Below, one piece after another: positions 1 through 12,680 of a DNA stretch of 53,033 nucleotides (positions within the stretch are counted from its first letter, which is position 1; the number at the start of each line of letters is the position of its first letter). This DNA comes from Myxococcales bacterium (GTDB lineage Bacteria; Myxococcota_A; Polyangia; Polyangiales; Houyiibacteriaceae). Under the pieces are notes generated by a model. That model saw nothing but the letters and a program-made list of their open reading frames with translations, did not search any database and was not told the origin of the DNA. The DNA lies in NCBI GenBank assembly GCA_029862185.1, contig JAOTXX010000021.1:1-53033 (forward strand), given 5' to 3'. The position numbers were made by a program, and so were the translations under genes.

Positions 1-1
1 G

Positions 2-127
2 GGCGACAACGTGAAGATGAAGGTCAACCTCATCACACCGGCGGCGATGGAAGAAAAGCAGCGCTTCGCGATTCGCGAAGGCGGCCGCACCATCGGTGCA
101 GGCGTCATTTCAAAGATTATCGAGTAG
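2..127 (+). CDS. tuf: Elongation factor Tu, C-terminal end (partial)
   Basis: The window opens inside a reading frame that ends at the TAG at 125-127. The 41 visible residues ([16 protein letters not shown], then [19 protein letters not shown]) match the last beta-barrel domain of EF-Tu, the GTPase that delivers aminoacyl-tRNA to the ribosome. The 5' part lies outside the window. It sits 4 bases before rpsJ, the normal end of the str operon (rpsL-rpsG-fusA-tuf), so the str and S10 operons are probably co-transcribed. Confidence 0.95.
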
Positions 128-131
128 AACG

Positions 132-440
132 ATGGCTGCGAACAAGATCCGGATTCGACTCAAGGCTTACGATCACCGATTGCTAGACCAATCGGCGACG
201 GAAATCGTCGACACGGCGAAGCGCACCGGTGCGCGGGTCGCGGGTCCGATTCCGCTGCCCACGCGCATCAACAAGTACACCGTGCTGCGTGGGCCCCACG
301 TGGACAAGAAGTCGCGAGAGCAGTTCGAGATTCGGACCCACAAGCGACTCTTGGACATCTTGGATCCCACTCAACAGACGCTCGACGCCCTCATGAAGCT
401 GGATCTTTCAGCGGGTGTCGATGTCGAGATCAAGTCATAA
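132..440 (+). CDS. rpsJ: 30S ribosomal protein S10
   Basis: The product is 102 residues, the usual size for S10, a 30S head protein that also acts as NusE in antitermination. Its start ([19 protein letters not shown]) and the [21 protein letters not shown] stretch are typical. A longer frame begins at 96 but runs through the end of tuf, so the ATG at 132 is preferred. The next gene is rplD, 12 bases downstream; rplC, which normally follows rpsJ, is absent. Confidence 0.97.
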
Positions 441-452
441 GGCGGTAGGTCC

Positions 453-1076
453 ATGCCCAAGGTGAAGGTCTACAACTTGAGTAAGAAGGGTGTCGGAGAG
501 ATGGATCTCTCGGACAACGTTTTCGATGCGACTGTCAGCGAGAGCCTCCTCTATGATGTTCTCAAGGCCCAGCTCGCGAGCCAACGCAAAGGCGCAGCTT
601 CGTCCCAGAACAGGGCCGAGGTCAGCCTGAGCACGCGCAAGATATACAAGCAGAAAGGCACCGGCGGTGCTCGTCATGGCTCGAAGCGCGCGCCGATTTT
701 CGTCGGAGGGGGAACGGTCCATGGCCCGAAGCCTCGTGACTTCGGCTACCGGCCCCCGCGAAAAATGCGGCTCGGAGCGCTCAAGGGCGCGTTGAGCCTC
801 AAGCTTCGCGAGGGTCAGCTGCTGGTCGTCGAGGACTTCGAGCTCTCCGAGATCAAGACGAAGAAGCTCGCCGAGGTTCTCGAAAAGCTCGAGGTCAACG
901 GCGGAGCGCTCATCGTCGACGCCAAAGAGAACGAGAAGCTCCGGCTGAGCGCGCGCAACTTGCAGGGCCATTCGGTTTTGCCACCCGAGGGGGTGAACCT
1001 CTACGACCTGCTCCGTCACGAGCATCTCGTGCTCACGCAGACCGCGGTCCAGGCTCTGGAAGCAAGGTGTCAGTGA
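453..1076 (+). CDS. rplD: 50S ribosomal protein L4
   Basis: This 207-residue protein is L4, a primary 23S rRNA binder that lines the exit tunnel. The basic loop with STRKIYKQKGTGGARHGS (about residues 60-77) and GGTVHGPKPRDFGY are hallmarks. It follows rpsJ directly, where rplC would be expected. The stop overlaps the rplW ATG in a TGATG junction at 1074-1078. L4 autoregulates the S10 operon in E. coli, but the 12-base rpsJ-rplD gap has no room for a leader here. Confidence 0.97.
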   Translation: MPKVKVYNLSKKGVGEMDLSDNVFDATVSESLLYDVLKAQLASQRKGAASSQNRAEVSLSTRKIYKQKGTGGARHGSKRAPIFVGGGTVHGPKPRDFGYRPPRKMRLGALKGALSLKLREGQLLVVEDFELSEIKTKKLAEVLEKLEVNGGALIVDAKENEKLRLSARNLQGHSVLPPEGVNLYDLLRHEHLVLTQTAVQALEARCQ

Positions 1077-1366
1077 TGCACGCCGAACAAGTCATCAAGC
1101 GCCCGATTTACCTCACGGAGAAGGGCGCCAAGCTGCGCGAAGAGGACAACAAGTACACCTTCGAGGTGGACCTCGACGCGAACAAGCTCCAGATCAAAGA
1201 CGCCGTCGAGACTTTGTTCAAAGTCACCGTGCGCGACGTCCGCACGCTTGTCATGCGTGGTCACATGCGCCGCATGGGCAAGACGTACGCGAAAACCCAA
1301 AACTGGAAAAAGGCCATCGTTACGCTCCGCGAGGGTGAGACGATCGACTTCTTCGAGGGTGTCTAA
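1076..1366 (+). CDS. rplW: 50S ribosomal protein L23
   Basis: L23 lies at the tunnel exit and is a docking site for trigger factor and SRP. The product is 96 residues from the ATG at 1076. The region around [14 protein letters not shown] and the C-terminal [15 protein letters not shown] are typical. A GTG at 1067 would add three residues; the ATG overlapping the rplD stop, with AAGG about 9 bases upstream, looks better. Confidence 0.95.
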
Positions 1367-1368
1367 AG

Positions 1369-2196
1369 ATGGCAATCCGTAAGTTCAAACCCACGTCGCC
1401 GTCCCGCCGCTTCTACGAAGCGCCAGACTTCGACATGATCACGCGCGGGAAGCCCGAAAAGAAGCTTCTCGATTCCAAGAAGCAGACGGGCGGTCGCAAC
1501 AACCAAGGCCGCATCACGTCGCGATTTCGTGGGGGCGGCCACAAGCAGCGCTACCGCAAAATCGACTTCAAGCGAAACAAGATTGGCGTGCCCGGTACGG
1601 TGAAAGCCATCGAGTACGATCCGAACCGCTCGGCTCGCATCGCGCTTTTGCACTACGCCGATGGCGAAAAGGCTTACATTCTCGCGCCGGACGGCATGGA
1701 AATCGGCCAGCAGGTGCTGTCGTCACGTTACGCGGACGTCAAGCCCGGCAACGCGATGCCGCTTCGCCACATGCCGCTCGGCACGATGATTCACAACATC
1801 GAGCTCAAGATCGGCAAAGGCGCCCAGCTCGTGCGTTCCGCCGGCACCGCGGCTCAGTTGATGGCCAAGGACGGCAACTACGCTCAGATTCGCCTTCCCT
1901 CCGGTGAGGTTCGGATGGTGCACCTCAACTGCCGTGCATCGGTCGGGCAGGTCAGCAACTCGCAGCATGCCCGCCTGACTCTCGGCAAGGCTGGCCGAAG
2001 CCGTTGGCTCGGTCGCCGTCCGCACAACCGCGGCACTACGATGAACCCGGTCGACCACCCGATGGGCGGCGGCGAGGGCCGGACCGCAGGCGGGCGTCAA
2101 CCTTGCTCACCCTGGGGTCAGCTCGCCAAGGGCCTGAAGACCAGAAAGAACAAGTCGACGGACAAGTACATCGTTCGCAGGCGGAAGAAGAAGTAA
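1369..2196 (+). CDS. rplB: 50S ribosomal protein L2
   Basis: The 275-residue product is L2, which organises the peptidyl-transferase centre. Visible signatures are the N-terminal [14 protein letters not shown], a central [15 protein letters not shown] and the conserved C-terminal [13 protein letters not shown], which contains the functionally important His. The length is normal for bacterial L2. The stop codon TAA shares its last base with the rpsS ATG at 2196, so translation is probably coupled. Confidence 0.98.
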
Positions 2197-2498
2197 TGGC
2201 GCGTTCAGTAAAAAAGGGTCCGTTCATCGACCAACACCTGGAAGACAAGGTCGAGGCTGCGAACAAGTCGGGCGACAAGAAGATGATCCGAACTTGGTCG
2301 CGCCGCTCGACCGTGACGCCCGATTTCGTCGGGCACACCTTCGCCGTTCACAACGGCCGGAAATTCGTCACCGTCTTCGTCACCGAGAACATGGTCGGGC
2401 ACAAGCTCGGCGAGTTCGCGCCCACGCGGACGTTCGGCGGTCACGCGTCCGACAAGAAGGGTGGTCGCAAGATCAACCCGCAGACAGGGAAGAAGTGA
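2196..2498 (+). CDS. rpsS: 30S ribosomal protein S19
   Basis: S19 is a 30S head protein that pairs with S13 near the A-site tRNA. The product has 100 residues; [25 protein letters not shown] and [19 protein letters not shown] are diagnostic. The ATG at 2196 overlaps the rplB stop. A frame that begins at 2004 is open upstream but runs inside rplB out of frame, so it is not the real start. Confidence 0.97.
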
Positions 2499-2500
2499 AC

Positions 2501-2851
2501 ATGGAAGCGGTCGCAAAAGCACGGTTTCAAAGGATTTCACCTCGCAAAGCGCGGGTCGTGCTCAACATGGTGCGCGGTAAGAGCGTTGCCGACGCCCTTA
2601 ACGAGCTCCGCTTCACGACGAAGTCGGCGGCTCCCATCGTGGCCAAGGCCATCAGCAGCGCGATCGCCAACGCCAAGCAGAAAAACGAAGAGCTCAATCT
2701 TGACGACCTGTTCGTCAAGACGGCATTTGCCGACATGGCGCCCAACCAGCACATGCGGCGTTGGCGTCCTCGGGCGCAGGGGCGCGCGACGCGCATCCTC
2801 AAGGGAATGAGTCACATCACCGTCGTCGTGAGCGATGGGGAAGAGAGCTGA
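2501..2851 (+). CDS. rplV: 50S ribosomal protein L22
   Basis: The 116-residue product is L22, whose long beta-hairpin lines the exit tunnel and is a common site of macrolide resistance. [19 protein letters not shown] at the N terminus and the loop [21 protein letters not shown] are typical. The ATG at 2501 is two bases after the rpsS stop. The open frame extends upstream to 2294, but that part overlaps rpsS and is not L22-like. Confidence 0.96.
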
Positions 2852-2854
2852 AGC

Positions 2855-3517
2855 GTGGGTCAGAAAGTACATCCTTATGGGTTCCGTCTCGGCGTCGTAA
2901 AGACGTGGAAGTCCAAGTGGTACGAGGACAAGAACTACGCCAAGTGGCTTCATGAAGACCTGAAGCTCAAGCGCGTCATCCGAAAGAAGTTCGCTCATGC
3001 TGGCATCGCCGACATCGAGATGGAGCGCGCTGCGAACAAGGCCAAGGTGGTCATCTACACCTCACGCCCGGGCATCATCATCGGCAAACGCGGCGCGGGC
3101 GTCGAGCAGCTCAAGGCCGATCTTCAGAAGCTCACGCAGAACGAGCTTTTCCTCGACATCCAAGAGGTTCGCAAGGCCGAGACGAACGCACAGCTCGTCG
3201 CGGAGAACATCGCAACGCAGCTCGAGCGTCGTGTCGCTTTTCGCCGCGCCATGAAAAAGGCCGTGCAAACTGCGATGAAATTCGGCGTGAAGGGAATCCG
3301 CGTCACGGCCGGTGGTCGCCTCGGCGGTGCGGAAATTGCGCGTACCGAGTGGTATCGCGAGGGCCGCGTGCCACTTCATACGCTTCGGGCCGACATCGAC
3401 TACGGCGAGGTCACGGCGCACACGAAGGCCGGCACCGTCGGCATCAAATGCTGGATTTTCAAAGGCGAGCAGCTTCCGCATCGCCCAGGTGCAGGGGCCG
3501 CGGGAGCCCGGGTCTAA
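2855..3517 (+). CDS. rpsC: 30S ribosomal protein S3
   Basis: S3 is 220 residues and forms part of the mRNA entry tunnel. It starts with GTG at 2855 ([20 protein letters not shown]). The KH-domain signature [15 protein letters not shown] lies at about residues 70-84, and the C-terminal domain contains [20 protein letters not shown]. The 3-base gap after rplV and the GTG start are ordinary for coupled ribosomal genes. Confidence 0.97.
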
Positions 3518-3526
3518 GGACGAGCC

Positions 3527-3943
3527 ATGCTTCAACCAAAGAAAACCAAGTTCCGAAAACAGATGAAGGGCCGCATGCGCGGTAAGGCCTACCGAGGCGG
3601 CAAGATCTCGTTTGGCGATTTCGGACTGCAGGCGCTCGAGCCCGGCCGAATCAGCCAGCGCCAGATCGAAGCGGCTCGTATGACGATTCAGCGTAAGGTG
3701 AAGCGTCAAGGCCAGCTCTTCATCCGAATCTTCCCGGACAAGCCGATCACCAAAAAGCCGCTCGAAACTCGTATGGGTAAGGGCAAGGGCAGCGTCGAAG
3801 GCTGGGTGGCAGTCATCAGGCCCGGTCGCATGCTCTACGAAATCCAGGGCGTGCCCGAGGACCTCGCTCGCGAGGCGTTCGCACTCGCCGCCCATAAGCT
3901 CCCGCTCAAGACGACGTTCCGGTCGAGGGAGACCGAGCTATGA
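3527..3943 (+). CDS. rplP: 50S ribosomal protein L16
   Basis: L16 is 138 residues here, the usual size. It contacts the A-site tRNA elbow and links the 5S rRNA region with the peptidyl-transferase centre. The N-terminal [19 protein letters not shown] and the segment [18 protein letters not shown] are diagnostic. Its stop overlaps the rpmC ATG by 4 bases (ATGA at 3940). Confidence 0.97.
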
Positions 3944-4146
3944 AGCCAGAAGACATTCGTACGAACACGGTCGAAGAGCTTTCGGTCATCGAAGGCGACT
4001 TGCGACGCCAGCTTTGGAAGGCGCGCTTCGACAATCACACCAATCAGCTCGACGATACGAGCTCGATTCAGAAGCTTCGCCGGGATCTCGCCCGAGTGAA
4101 AACCATTCTCACCGAGCGCCGCGCCGAAGCGGCGAGCAAGGAGTGA
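3940..4146 (+). CDS. rpmC: 50S ribosomal protein L29
   Basis: The 68-residue all-helical product is L29, a neighbour of L23 at the tunnel exit. The conserved elements are the N-terminal [14 protein letters not shown], the central [11 protein letters not shown] and the helix [15 protein letters not shown]. It overlaps the end of rplP by 4 bases and precedes rpsQ by 6 bases, the standard order. Confidence 0.95.
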
Positions 4147-4152
4147 TCGGCC

Positions 4153-4470
4153 ATGACTGCTGCTGAGCCAGGACAACCGACACCAAAAGCCACCAAGGAG
4201 CGTGGTCGCCGTCGTCGCTTGGTCGGACGCGTCGTGAACGAGACGCAGACCGAGGGCCGGGTCCAACAGACCGTCGTGGTGGAGGTCATTCGCCGCGCCC
4301 GCGACCCTTTCTATGGAAAATACGTCAAGCGTAAGAAGAAGTTTCACGCGCACGACGAGGCCAACGAGTACCGCAAGAATGACGTCGTGGAGATTCGCGC
4401 CTGCCGCCCGCGCAGCAAGACGAAGCGCTGGGAGGTCGTACGCCTCATCGAGAGGCCGCCGGAGGTATAA
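4153..4470 (+). CDS. rpsQ: 30S ribosomal protein S17
   Basis: S17 is an early-assembling 16S rRNA binder with an OB fold. The core from about residue 20 ([12 protein letters not shown]) through [16 protein letters not shown] and [11 protein letters not shown] is clear. At 105 residues it is some 20 longer than the E. coli protein. The excess is a polar N-terminal tail rich in Ala, Pro, Lys and Glu. No internal ATG in the tail suggests a shorter start. Confidence 0.96.
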
Positions 4471-11236: not shown

Positions 11237-11638
11237 ATGGCGAAGGCGAAAGCGAAGTCCACCAAGGGCAAGAAGCGTAAGACCAAGAGGGTCGTGACGA
11301 GCGGAATCGCTCACATCCAGTCCACCTTCAACAACACGATCGTCACCATTACCGACTTGGGCGGTGAGGTGGTTTCTTGGTCGACGGCTGGCGCGCGTGG
11401 CTTCAAGGGCTCACGCAAGAGCACGCCGTTTGCGGCACAGCTCGCAGCCGAAGATGCGGCCCGCAAAGCGCAGGACGTAGGCATGAAGACCATCGCGATT
11501 TTCGTGAAGGGTCCCGGTGCAGGCCGCGAGTCTGCACTTCGAGCATTTCAGAACGTCGGGATGCGGGTCACTCTGCTTCGTGACGTGACACCGATCCCAC
11601 ACAATGGTTGTCGGCCGCCAAAGCGGCGGCGCGTTTAA
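11237..11638 (+). CDS. rpsK: 30S ribosomal protein S11
   Basis: S11 lines the platform near the Shine-Dalgarno helix. The product is 133 residues with a Lys-rich N terminus, [18 protein letters not shown], and the conserved C-terminal [18 protein letters not shown]. rpsD normally follows; here rpoA starts 19 bases downstream. Confidence 0.97.
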
Positions 11639-11657
11639 AAGGCTGCGGAGGCAATTG

Positions 11658-12680
11658 ATGACGAGTCCGACCCTAGTCGCACGCAACTGGCGTGAGCTCA
11701 TTCGCCCAAGGAACGTTCCTGTTGATCAGGAATCGCTCAGCGATACCTATGGCAAATTCGTCGTGGAGCCGCTCGAGCGTGGTTTTGGCATCACGCTCGG
11801 TAACTCGCTGCGCCGCGTGTTGCTGTCCTCCCTTCAAGGAGCGGCCATCACAGCCGTCAAAATCGACGGCGCGCTACACGAGTTCACCTCCGTTCCGGAC
11901 GTCGTCGAGGACGTCACCGAAATGGTCCTCAACTTCAAAGAGGTAGTCGTCCGTTCACACACCGCGCGCACGCAGACGGTCCGCATCGAGAAGGAAGGTC
12001 CCGGCACCGTGACGGCTGCCGACATACAGGTCAGCGACCAGATTGAAATCCTCAATCCGGACCACAAAATCTGCACGCTATCCAAGGGCGGCCGCTTCGC
12101 AGCCGAGCTCACGATCAACGTCGGCCACGGCTATGTTCCGGCCGATCGCAACAAGACCGCGGGCATTCCGATTGGCACAATCGCCATCGACTCGCTGTTT
12201 TCGCCGATTCGCAAGGTGAACTACGCGGTGACCAACGCTCGTGTCGGCCAGATCACCGACTACGACAAGCTCACCCTCGAGGTCTGGACTAACGGCGCCG
12301 TGAAGCCGGCTGATGCTGTCGCTTACGCCGCCAAGATCCTCAAGGACCAACTGACGATCTTCATCAACTTCGAAGAGCACGATGAGCCCGTCGAGGAGTC
12401 GAGCTCCGAGGAGCCGCTCAACGAGAACCTCTTCCGCTCGGTCGACGAGCTCGAGCTCTCGGTTCGGTCCGCCAACTGCCTCCAAAACGCCAACATCAAG
12501 CTGATTGGCGAGCTGGTGCAGAAGAGCGAAGGCGAAATGCTCAAGACGAAGAACTTTGGGCGCAAGTCGCTCAAGGAAATCAAGGAAATCCTGGCTGACA
12601 TGGGTCTCTCCCTCGGCATGCAGATCGACCATTGGTCGCAGATGCTCGAACGTTGGAAGACACAGCAGGCCAACCAGTAA
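11658..12680 (+). CDS. rpoA: RNA polymerase subunit alpha
   Basis: The 340-residue product initiates RNA polymerase assembly as a dimer. The N-terminal domain includes [20 protein letters not shown] (about residues 35-54). The C-terminal helix-hairpin-helix domain includes [18 protein letters not shown] and [15 protein letters not shown], which contact UP elements and activators. The open frame extends up to 11604 within rpsK; the ATG at 11658 is the best start. Confidence 0.97.

Follow-up and report, generated by a model that had tools for sequence, protein, structure and literature searches.

The ribosomal protein L3 gene lies outside the S10 operon, most commonly next to rlmE, in a myxobacterial lineage

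The S10-type gene run at the start of the 53,033-nucleotide stretch of DNA analysed here (the window) lacks rplC, the gene for ribosomal protein L3, so that rpsJ and rplD are direct neighbours. In this genome rplC is neither deleted nor missing, and its place outside the operon is a stable lineage feature. We consider it very probable that rplC was relocated in the distant past and that its present location, in which the single L3 gene of the genome stands in the order holB-metG-(HEAT protein)-tatD-rplC-rlmE, provides it with what is probably its own promoter and with a coupled rlmE. In families other than that of the window, conserved RNA structures before the relocated gene are candidate uL3 autoregulatory leaders.

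Results

rpsJ and rplD are complete and abut

The window opens within tuf and continues into the following features, all on the forward strand.

1..127, + strand: tuf (EF-Tu), 3′ end only, truncated at the contig start; identified from its C-terminal sequence read in frame, no profile used
132..440, + strand: rpsJ (S10), complete; NF001861 and TIGR01049
441..452, + strand: rpsJ-rplD junction, 12 bases, the canonical place of rplC; same abutment in relatives
453..1076, + strand: rplD (L4), complete; TIGR03953
1079..1366, + strand: rplW (L23); open reading frame named from conserved order and sequence, its protein serving as the rplW query
1369..2196, + strand: rplB (L2); open reading frame whose protein served as the rplB query

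Only 12 bases separate rpsJ (ATG at 132, stop codon ending at 440) from rplD, and rplC is absent from the open reading frame list of the whole window. The preliminary description was thus right to place no rplC between the two genes, and right that neither is truncated: truncation is ruled out by matches to nearly full models, the rpsJ product scoring 170.9 bits against NF001861 and 158.3 bits against TIGR01049 and the rplD product 231.9 bits against TIGR03953. According to the open reading frame list, the canonical order rplD-rplW-rplB-rpsS-rplV-rpsC-rplP-rpmC-rpsQ is kept at 453–4470 (several members being profile queries), and the spc and alpha genes come downstream of the S10 genes in their usual order. 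As a separate observation, rpsD (S4) too is missing from the position between rpsK and rpoA that it holds in E. coli (window 11638–11692), an absence known in other bacteria.

The same description had held that the change removes the usual L4-linked leader position. This is wrong, since the uL4-binding leader of E. coli, as given in PMC10931766, is the 5′ UTR of the entire S10 operon and lies upstream of rpsJ, not in the rpsJ-rplD interval. In the window, tuf ends with TAG at 125–127, and because this is only 4 bases ahead of the rpsJ start codon, there is no room for a uL4-type leader before rpsJ. By this spacing and by an Rfam scan of the window, no E. coli-type long uL4-binding leader was found upstream of rpsJ; the scan gave no leader match anywhere in the window, its sole match being one tRNA.

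The genome has a single L3 gene, on a different contig

The window is contig C79 of a fragmented assembly (G000; 169 contigs, 4.29 Mb, 3.45% contamination). A genome-wide search returned one L3 match, at G000:C121:29720–30337 (TIGR03625, 235.6 bits against a cut-off of 142.9), as had been expected from the essential nature of L3. The gene (locus L097:7706–8434) matches TIGR03625 over its full length (model positions 1–202 of 202, 235.5 bits, passing the curated cut-off). In the 16-kb stretch L097 it stands beside tatD and rlmE in the order efp-epmA-(mazG, opposite strand)-tetR-holB-metG-HEAT-repeat protein-tatD-rplC-rlmE, followed on the other strand by a TPR protein gene and glnD. In this stretch epmA, holB, metG, tatD, rplC, rlmE and glnD were named with NCBIfam and the HEAT-repeat protein with Pfam, while efp, mazG and tetR were named from reading the sequence.

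The rpsJ-rplD junction recurs nearly phylum-wide

Three nested samples were used, comprising 57 relatives from 12 families, 116 genomes of the class and 150 genomes of the phylum. Among the relatives, L3 was found in 56 of 57, L4 in 50 and S10 in 49 (read from tables), and rplD lies beside rpsJ on one contig in 48 of these 49; the other genome, G005, has rpsJ and an rplD fragment on different contigs. Because relatives show the same junction, it is no assembly deletion. The phylum sample yielded L3 in 147 of 150 genomes, L4 in 143 and S10 in 141. Both rpsJ and rplD were found in 141, on the same contig and strand in every one, and the gap between their profile edges, parsed by script, is 16–377 bases in 140 and 851 bases in G169. 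This abutment in 140 of 141 genomes argues that the relocation is probably old and lineage-wide, the lineage probably being Myxococcota. What had been described as an uncommon change in a conserved operon is indeed a real change, but no peculiarity of this genome.

L3 and L4 seldom share a contig. They do so in three relatives (G013, G014 and G043; separation 0.15–4.1 Mb), in a single genome of the class sample (G074, about 175 kb apart; L3 in 109 of 116 and L4 in 99, from tables) and in 8 of the 141 phylum-sample genomes in which both were found, where they are adjacent only in G169. Apart from genes broken at contig ends or divided into pieces, each genome of the relatives and phylum samples has one full L3 gene.

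The fragmentation and contamination of the assembly, with rplC on a different contig from the window, speak for an artefact of assembly or binning, the C121 copy then being a contaminant. We give this explanation practically no credence, given that the same junction recurs in the relatives and the phylum sample, that five one-contig assemblies (G013, G014, G043, G168 and G231) place L3 0.15–4.1 Mb from L4, and that the C121 L3, aligned over most or the whole of its length, is 80–94% identical to that of 15 genus-level relatives, most of which have the same neighbours.

The only canonical genome of the phylum sample, G169 (family f33, L098), has the order rpsJ-rplC-rplD-rplW-rplB. In a tree of nine concatenated operon proteins it stands inside the sampled phylum beside G163 (f32), which has rpsJ-rplD without rplC between them. 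The order in G169 (contamination 6%) may be either ancestral or a binning accident, because support in this tree is weak (66) and outgroups are few. Named relatives among the matches, the basis for the phylum name Myxococcota, are MAGs of Myxococcales, Polyangiaceae and Sandaracinaceae. Four matches that are clearly foreign (two Clostridia, one Muribaculaceae and one "Proteobacteria bacterium") are all rpsJ-rplC-rplD.

In a tree of L3 most phylum rows group by family, none of the 25 loci found points to a foreign donor, and non-myxobacterial L3 matches are 42–45% identical. These observations argue against a xenologous replacement, in which the original L3 gene was lost and rplC was acquired horizontally, a scenario that draws on the canonical L3 of G169 being only 38% identical to the window-genome L3 (blastp) and on the unresolved deep branches of the L3 tree, and that we regard as improbable. 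Because deep branches of this tree are poorly resolved and two of its rows (G171 and G184) were mis-extracted, it was not used for dating the move and does not prove that rplC relocated only once, or that the moved copy descended vertically; a single relocation event is what we infer.

rlmE is the commonest of several neighbours of rplC

The surroundings of rplC were taken from 127 genomes across families, 62 of the class and 65 from the rest of the phylum. Within the class, 52 of 62 genomes (26 of 29 families) have rlmE immediately after rplC on the same strand, the remaining ten being without the rplC-rlmE pair. Outside the class rlmE lies directly downstream in 16 of 65 (7 families), three of the 65 loci being at contig edges and one canonical. 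In other families the neighbours of rplC are unrelated genes, among them those for a coenzyme A transferase, an acyl-CoA synthetase-like protein, IMP dehydrogenase, DapF and a cyclic-nucleotide-binding TPR protein. Exit from the S10 operon is therefore nearly universal in the sample yet its destination is clade-dependent, the rlmE site being the commonest, and rlmE is not an essential neighbour. G182 (f43; L106:14774–15470) has rplC at the end of the alpha operon, about 0.5 kb beyond rplQ, and a hairpin precedes the gene.

These neighbourhoods also bear on a scenario in which rplC was duplicated to its new place, the operon copy was then lost and the rplC-rlmE pair is neutral hitch-hiking with no functional coupling. 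Duplication followed by loss is an ordinary route for moving an essential gene, and the unrelated neighbours in other families fit a neutral pair; the pair has nevertheless lasted, across 26 class families and seven outside the class, longer than neutral pairs usually do. We treat this scenario as a serious contender, if not the favoured one.

The RlmE of the window genome matches TIGR00438 over positions 1–187 of 188 with 153.1 bits, this being its best-matching family by far. We take the rlmE product to be the 23S rRNA U2552 2′-O-methyltransferase, its exact substrate being assumed because this score falls below the curated cut-off of 300.15. U2552, the target of RlmE, lies in the A loop, and L3 comes close to the peptidyl transferase centre, so it is attractive to think that the two might have a joint role in 50S maturation. 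Large open frames had suggested an L3-RlmE fusion, which was rejected as a stop codon ends rplC at every locus listed (71 rows).

A promoter-like site and a CTG codon flank rplC in the window's genus

The tatD-rplC gap is 88 bases long and holds TTGACT-16-TATCTT. TTGACT is present in all 18 distinct upstream regions of the genus and TATCTT in 17 of the 18 (21 rows, including 3 duplicate regions). The block from this promoter-like site to the rplC start codon is strongly conserved among the genus loci; sequence farther upstream is not. A consensus scan of 2 kb gave one promoter-like match against 0.1 expected, and rplC in this genus most likely has its own sigma-70-like promoter. The pattern TTGACT-N14..19-TATCTTTGCG has a single genome-wide occurrence, at the rplC site, and because the whole-genome search found it there alone, a promoter signature shared among ribosomal genes receives no support.

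At the other end of the gene, CTG comes immediately after the rplC stop codon (TAA, or TAG in one case) in all 17 distinct loci of the genus (L097:8432–8440; L072–L086, L091). At the genus loci rlmE has the same frame as rplC and GAGGG lies a few bases upstream of the CTG, and in all 17 distinct loci no in-frame ATG, GTG or TTG was found before the conserved RlmE core. Other genera differ in how far rlmE lies from rplC and in its frame relative to that gene. From these sequences we infer use of the promoter, co-transcription of rplC and rlmE and use of CTG as start codon, such that the two genes would form a short unit driven by a promoter of its own, with rlmE translated from a weak CTG start coupled to rplC.

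Structured elements precede rplC in other families

In five families (f41, f43, f46, f49 and f50), all 26 loci carry a like-folding element just before the rplC start codon. It reads CGUA, one base, an inner stem, three bases (CAA, CGA or CUA) and UGCG(G)AG, forming a hairpin with a 1x3 internal loop that adjoins the rplC Shine-Dalgarno sequence. A sixth family, f37, has the same loop within a three-way junction before rplC, where the order of the two loop strands is reversed. Further blocks of conserved sequence before rplC, among them GGGATGGCGGC...GTGACGGTCCC, GGGGCCGCTCA and GGACTCCAACAAGC, are possibly other leader types. The loci are as follows.

Hairpin before rplC: L108, L109, L110, L111, L123, L127, L131, L134, L137, L139, L148, L150, L153, L155, L166, L198–L207, L106
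Three-way junction before rplC (f37): L122, L103, L126, L218–L222, L224, L225, L227
Other conserved blocks upstream of rplC: L170, L162 (f54, f56); L112, L136, L146, L149, L165 (f47, f58); L117, L145, L212–L217 (f35)

In the hairpin alignment (A1), 92.8% of cells are paired against 85.1% when shuffled (0 of 500 as high), five pairs have changes on both sides and covariation is 0.189 against 0.059 shuffled (0 of 500). Sliding the partner strand destroys the pairing signal, and RNAalifold recovered the same ten pairs unaided; the four outer pairs carry no evidence because they never vary. When 76 sources, the 16 training loci among them, were searched with a covariance model built from A1, it recovered those 16 and gave two further, weak matches, with E-values of 0.03 and 0.4. 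For f37, hand-set anchors extracted 13 of 16 upstream regions, and the alignment (A2) comprises 11 sequences, L226 and L223 being omitted for their poorer fit. RNAalifold again folded A2 unaided, into the three-way junction, with 96.0% of cells paired, ten pairs with changes on both sides and covariation of 0.398 against 0.202 shuffled (0 of 500). The secondary structure before rplC in these six families is thus conserved and backed by covariation. No Rfam ribosomal leader was matched in the window, at the new rplC locus or at the other rplC loci.

A scan for the loop motif (strands A-N-GA and UC-CNM-U plus flanking helices) found it in 41 of 167 distinct rplC upstream regions against 1.0 in dinucleotide shuffles. 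Because the motif was defined on the six families, the fair test is the regions outside them, where it occurs in 8 of 125 against 0.77 shuffled; five of the eight are in f19 (three near-identical) and one each in f4, f34 and f38. It had no match in 49 families, and none in the 12 upstream regions of the window's own family. Mimicry of 23S rRNA by the leader loop was not detected in a scan of E. coli rrlB, which gave nothing above shuffles (157 of 200 as good or better). We regard the hairpin before relocated rplC outside the window's family as a candidate uL3 autoregulatory leader.

Discussion

Our results favour a model in which rplC left the S10 operon in the ancestor of most of the phylum, an event that would have made rpsJ and rplD direct neighbours. 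The operon left behind looks like a continuous tuf-rpsJ-rplD-rplW-rplB... transcription unit. At its new place, rplC would be transcribed together with rlmE from the sigma-70-type promoter in the tatD-rplC gap, and translation of rlmE would be coupled to that of rplC through the CTG right after the rplC stop codon.

For other families we suggest a second model, in which L3 would bind the 1x3 asymmetric internal loop (A-N-GA / UC-CNM-U) of the rplC leader and so block initiation. One loop would be presented on two scaffolds related by circular permutation, namely a three-way junction and a hairpin with an outer helix that ends at the Shine-Dalgarno sequence, and feedback on the rplC mRNA would replace any feedback once shared with the S10 operon; the window's own family would not be included. 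Taken as a whole, the proposal that much of the phylum controls L3 by feedback through this loop on two permuted scaffolds, which would be the first uL3-responsive RNA, seems to us nearly as likely to hold as to fail.

The gene set and order of the window resemble the canonical S10 operon (rpsJ-rplC-rplD-rplW-rplB-rpsS-rplV-rpsC-...), with spc and alpha downstream, except that rplC lies outside the operon beside rlmE and tuf abuts rpsJ. Other ribosomal protein genes are found outside the S10-spc-alpha cluster, such as rpsJ with the str operon in cyanobacteria and rpsD alone in Bacillus subtilis, and like these, rplC is an essential gene out of a conserved cluster and stably kept elsewhere. Unlike these cases, the gene that moved here comes from the L3-L4-L23-L2 block, which is among the most stable prokaryotic gene orders, and the change is nearly phylum-wide. 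The rplC elements of other families resemble r-leaders as compiled by Eckert and Weinberg in 2020 (PMC7247131), in that a covarying structure precedes a single ribosomal protein gene, with the ribosome-binding site in or adjoining it. Table 1 of that compilation has no L3 ligand and names rplC only as the first gene of an archaeal L4 leader. The candidate rplC leaders differ from the compiled ones in matching no Rfam family, and the window's own family yielded none.

Among titles and abstracts of the open-licence PubMed Central literature, we found no description of rplC relocation or of an L3 leader. Coenye and Vandamme reportedly surveyed the organisation of the S10, spc and alpha operons in 2005, and an earlier mention of the relocation may exist, as every annotated genome of the group shows it.

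The stable, nearly phylum-wide removal of L3 indicates that the gene of an early-assembling 50S protein need not keep its place in the operon, provided that its expression is re-established. The exit of rplC provides a synapomorphy-like marker for the phylum, and a caution against calling rplC "missing" in such genomes. As a gene-order variant alone it is of moderate interest; its regulatory consequences are the more interesting part. The relocation opens the question of how L3 dosage is balanced once uncoupled from S10, for which three visible solutions can be compared, namely an own promoter with rlmE coupling, a hairpin leader and a permuted three-way-junction leader. If uL3 feedback is true, the relocation of rplC would be a natural experiment in the rewiring of ribosomal protein control.
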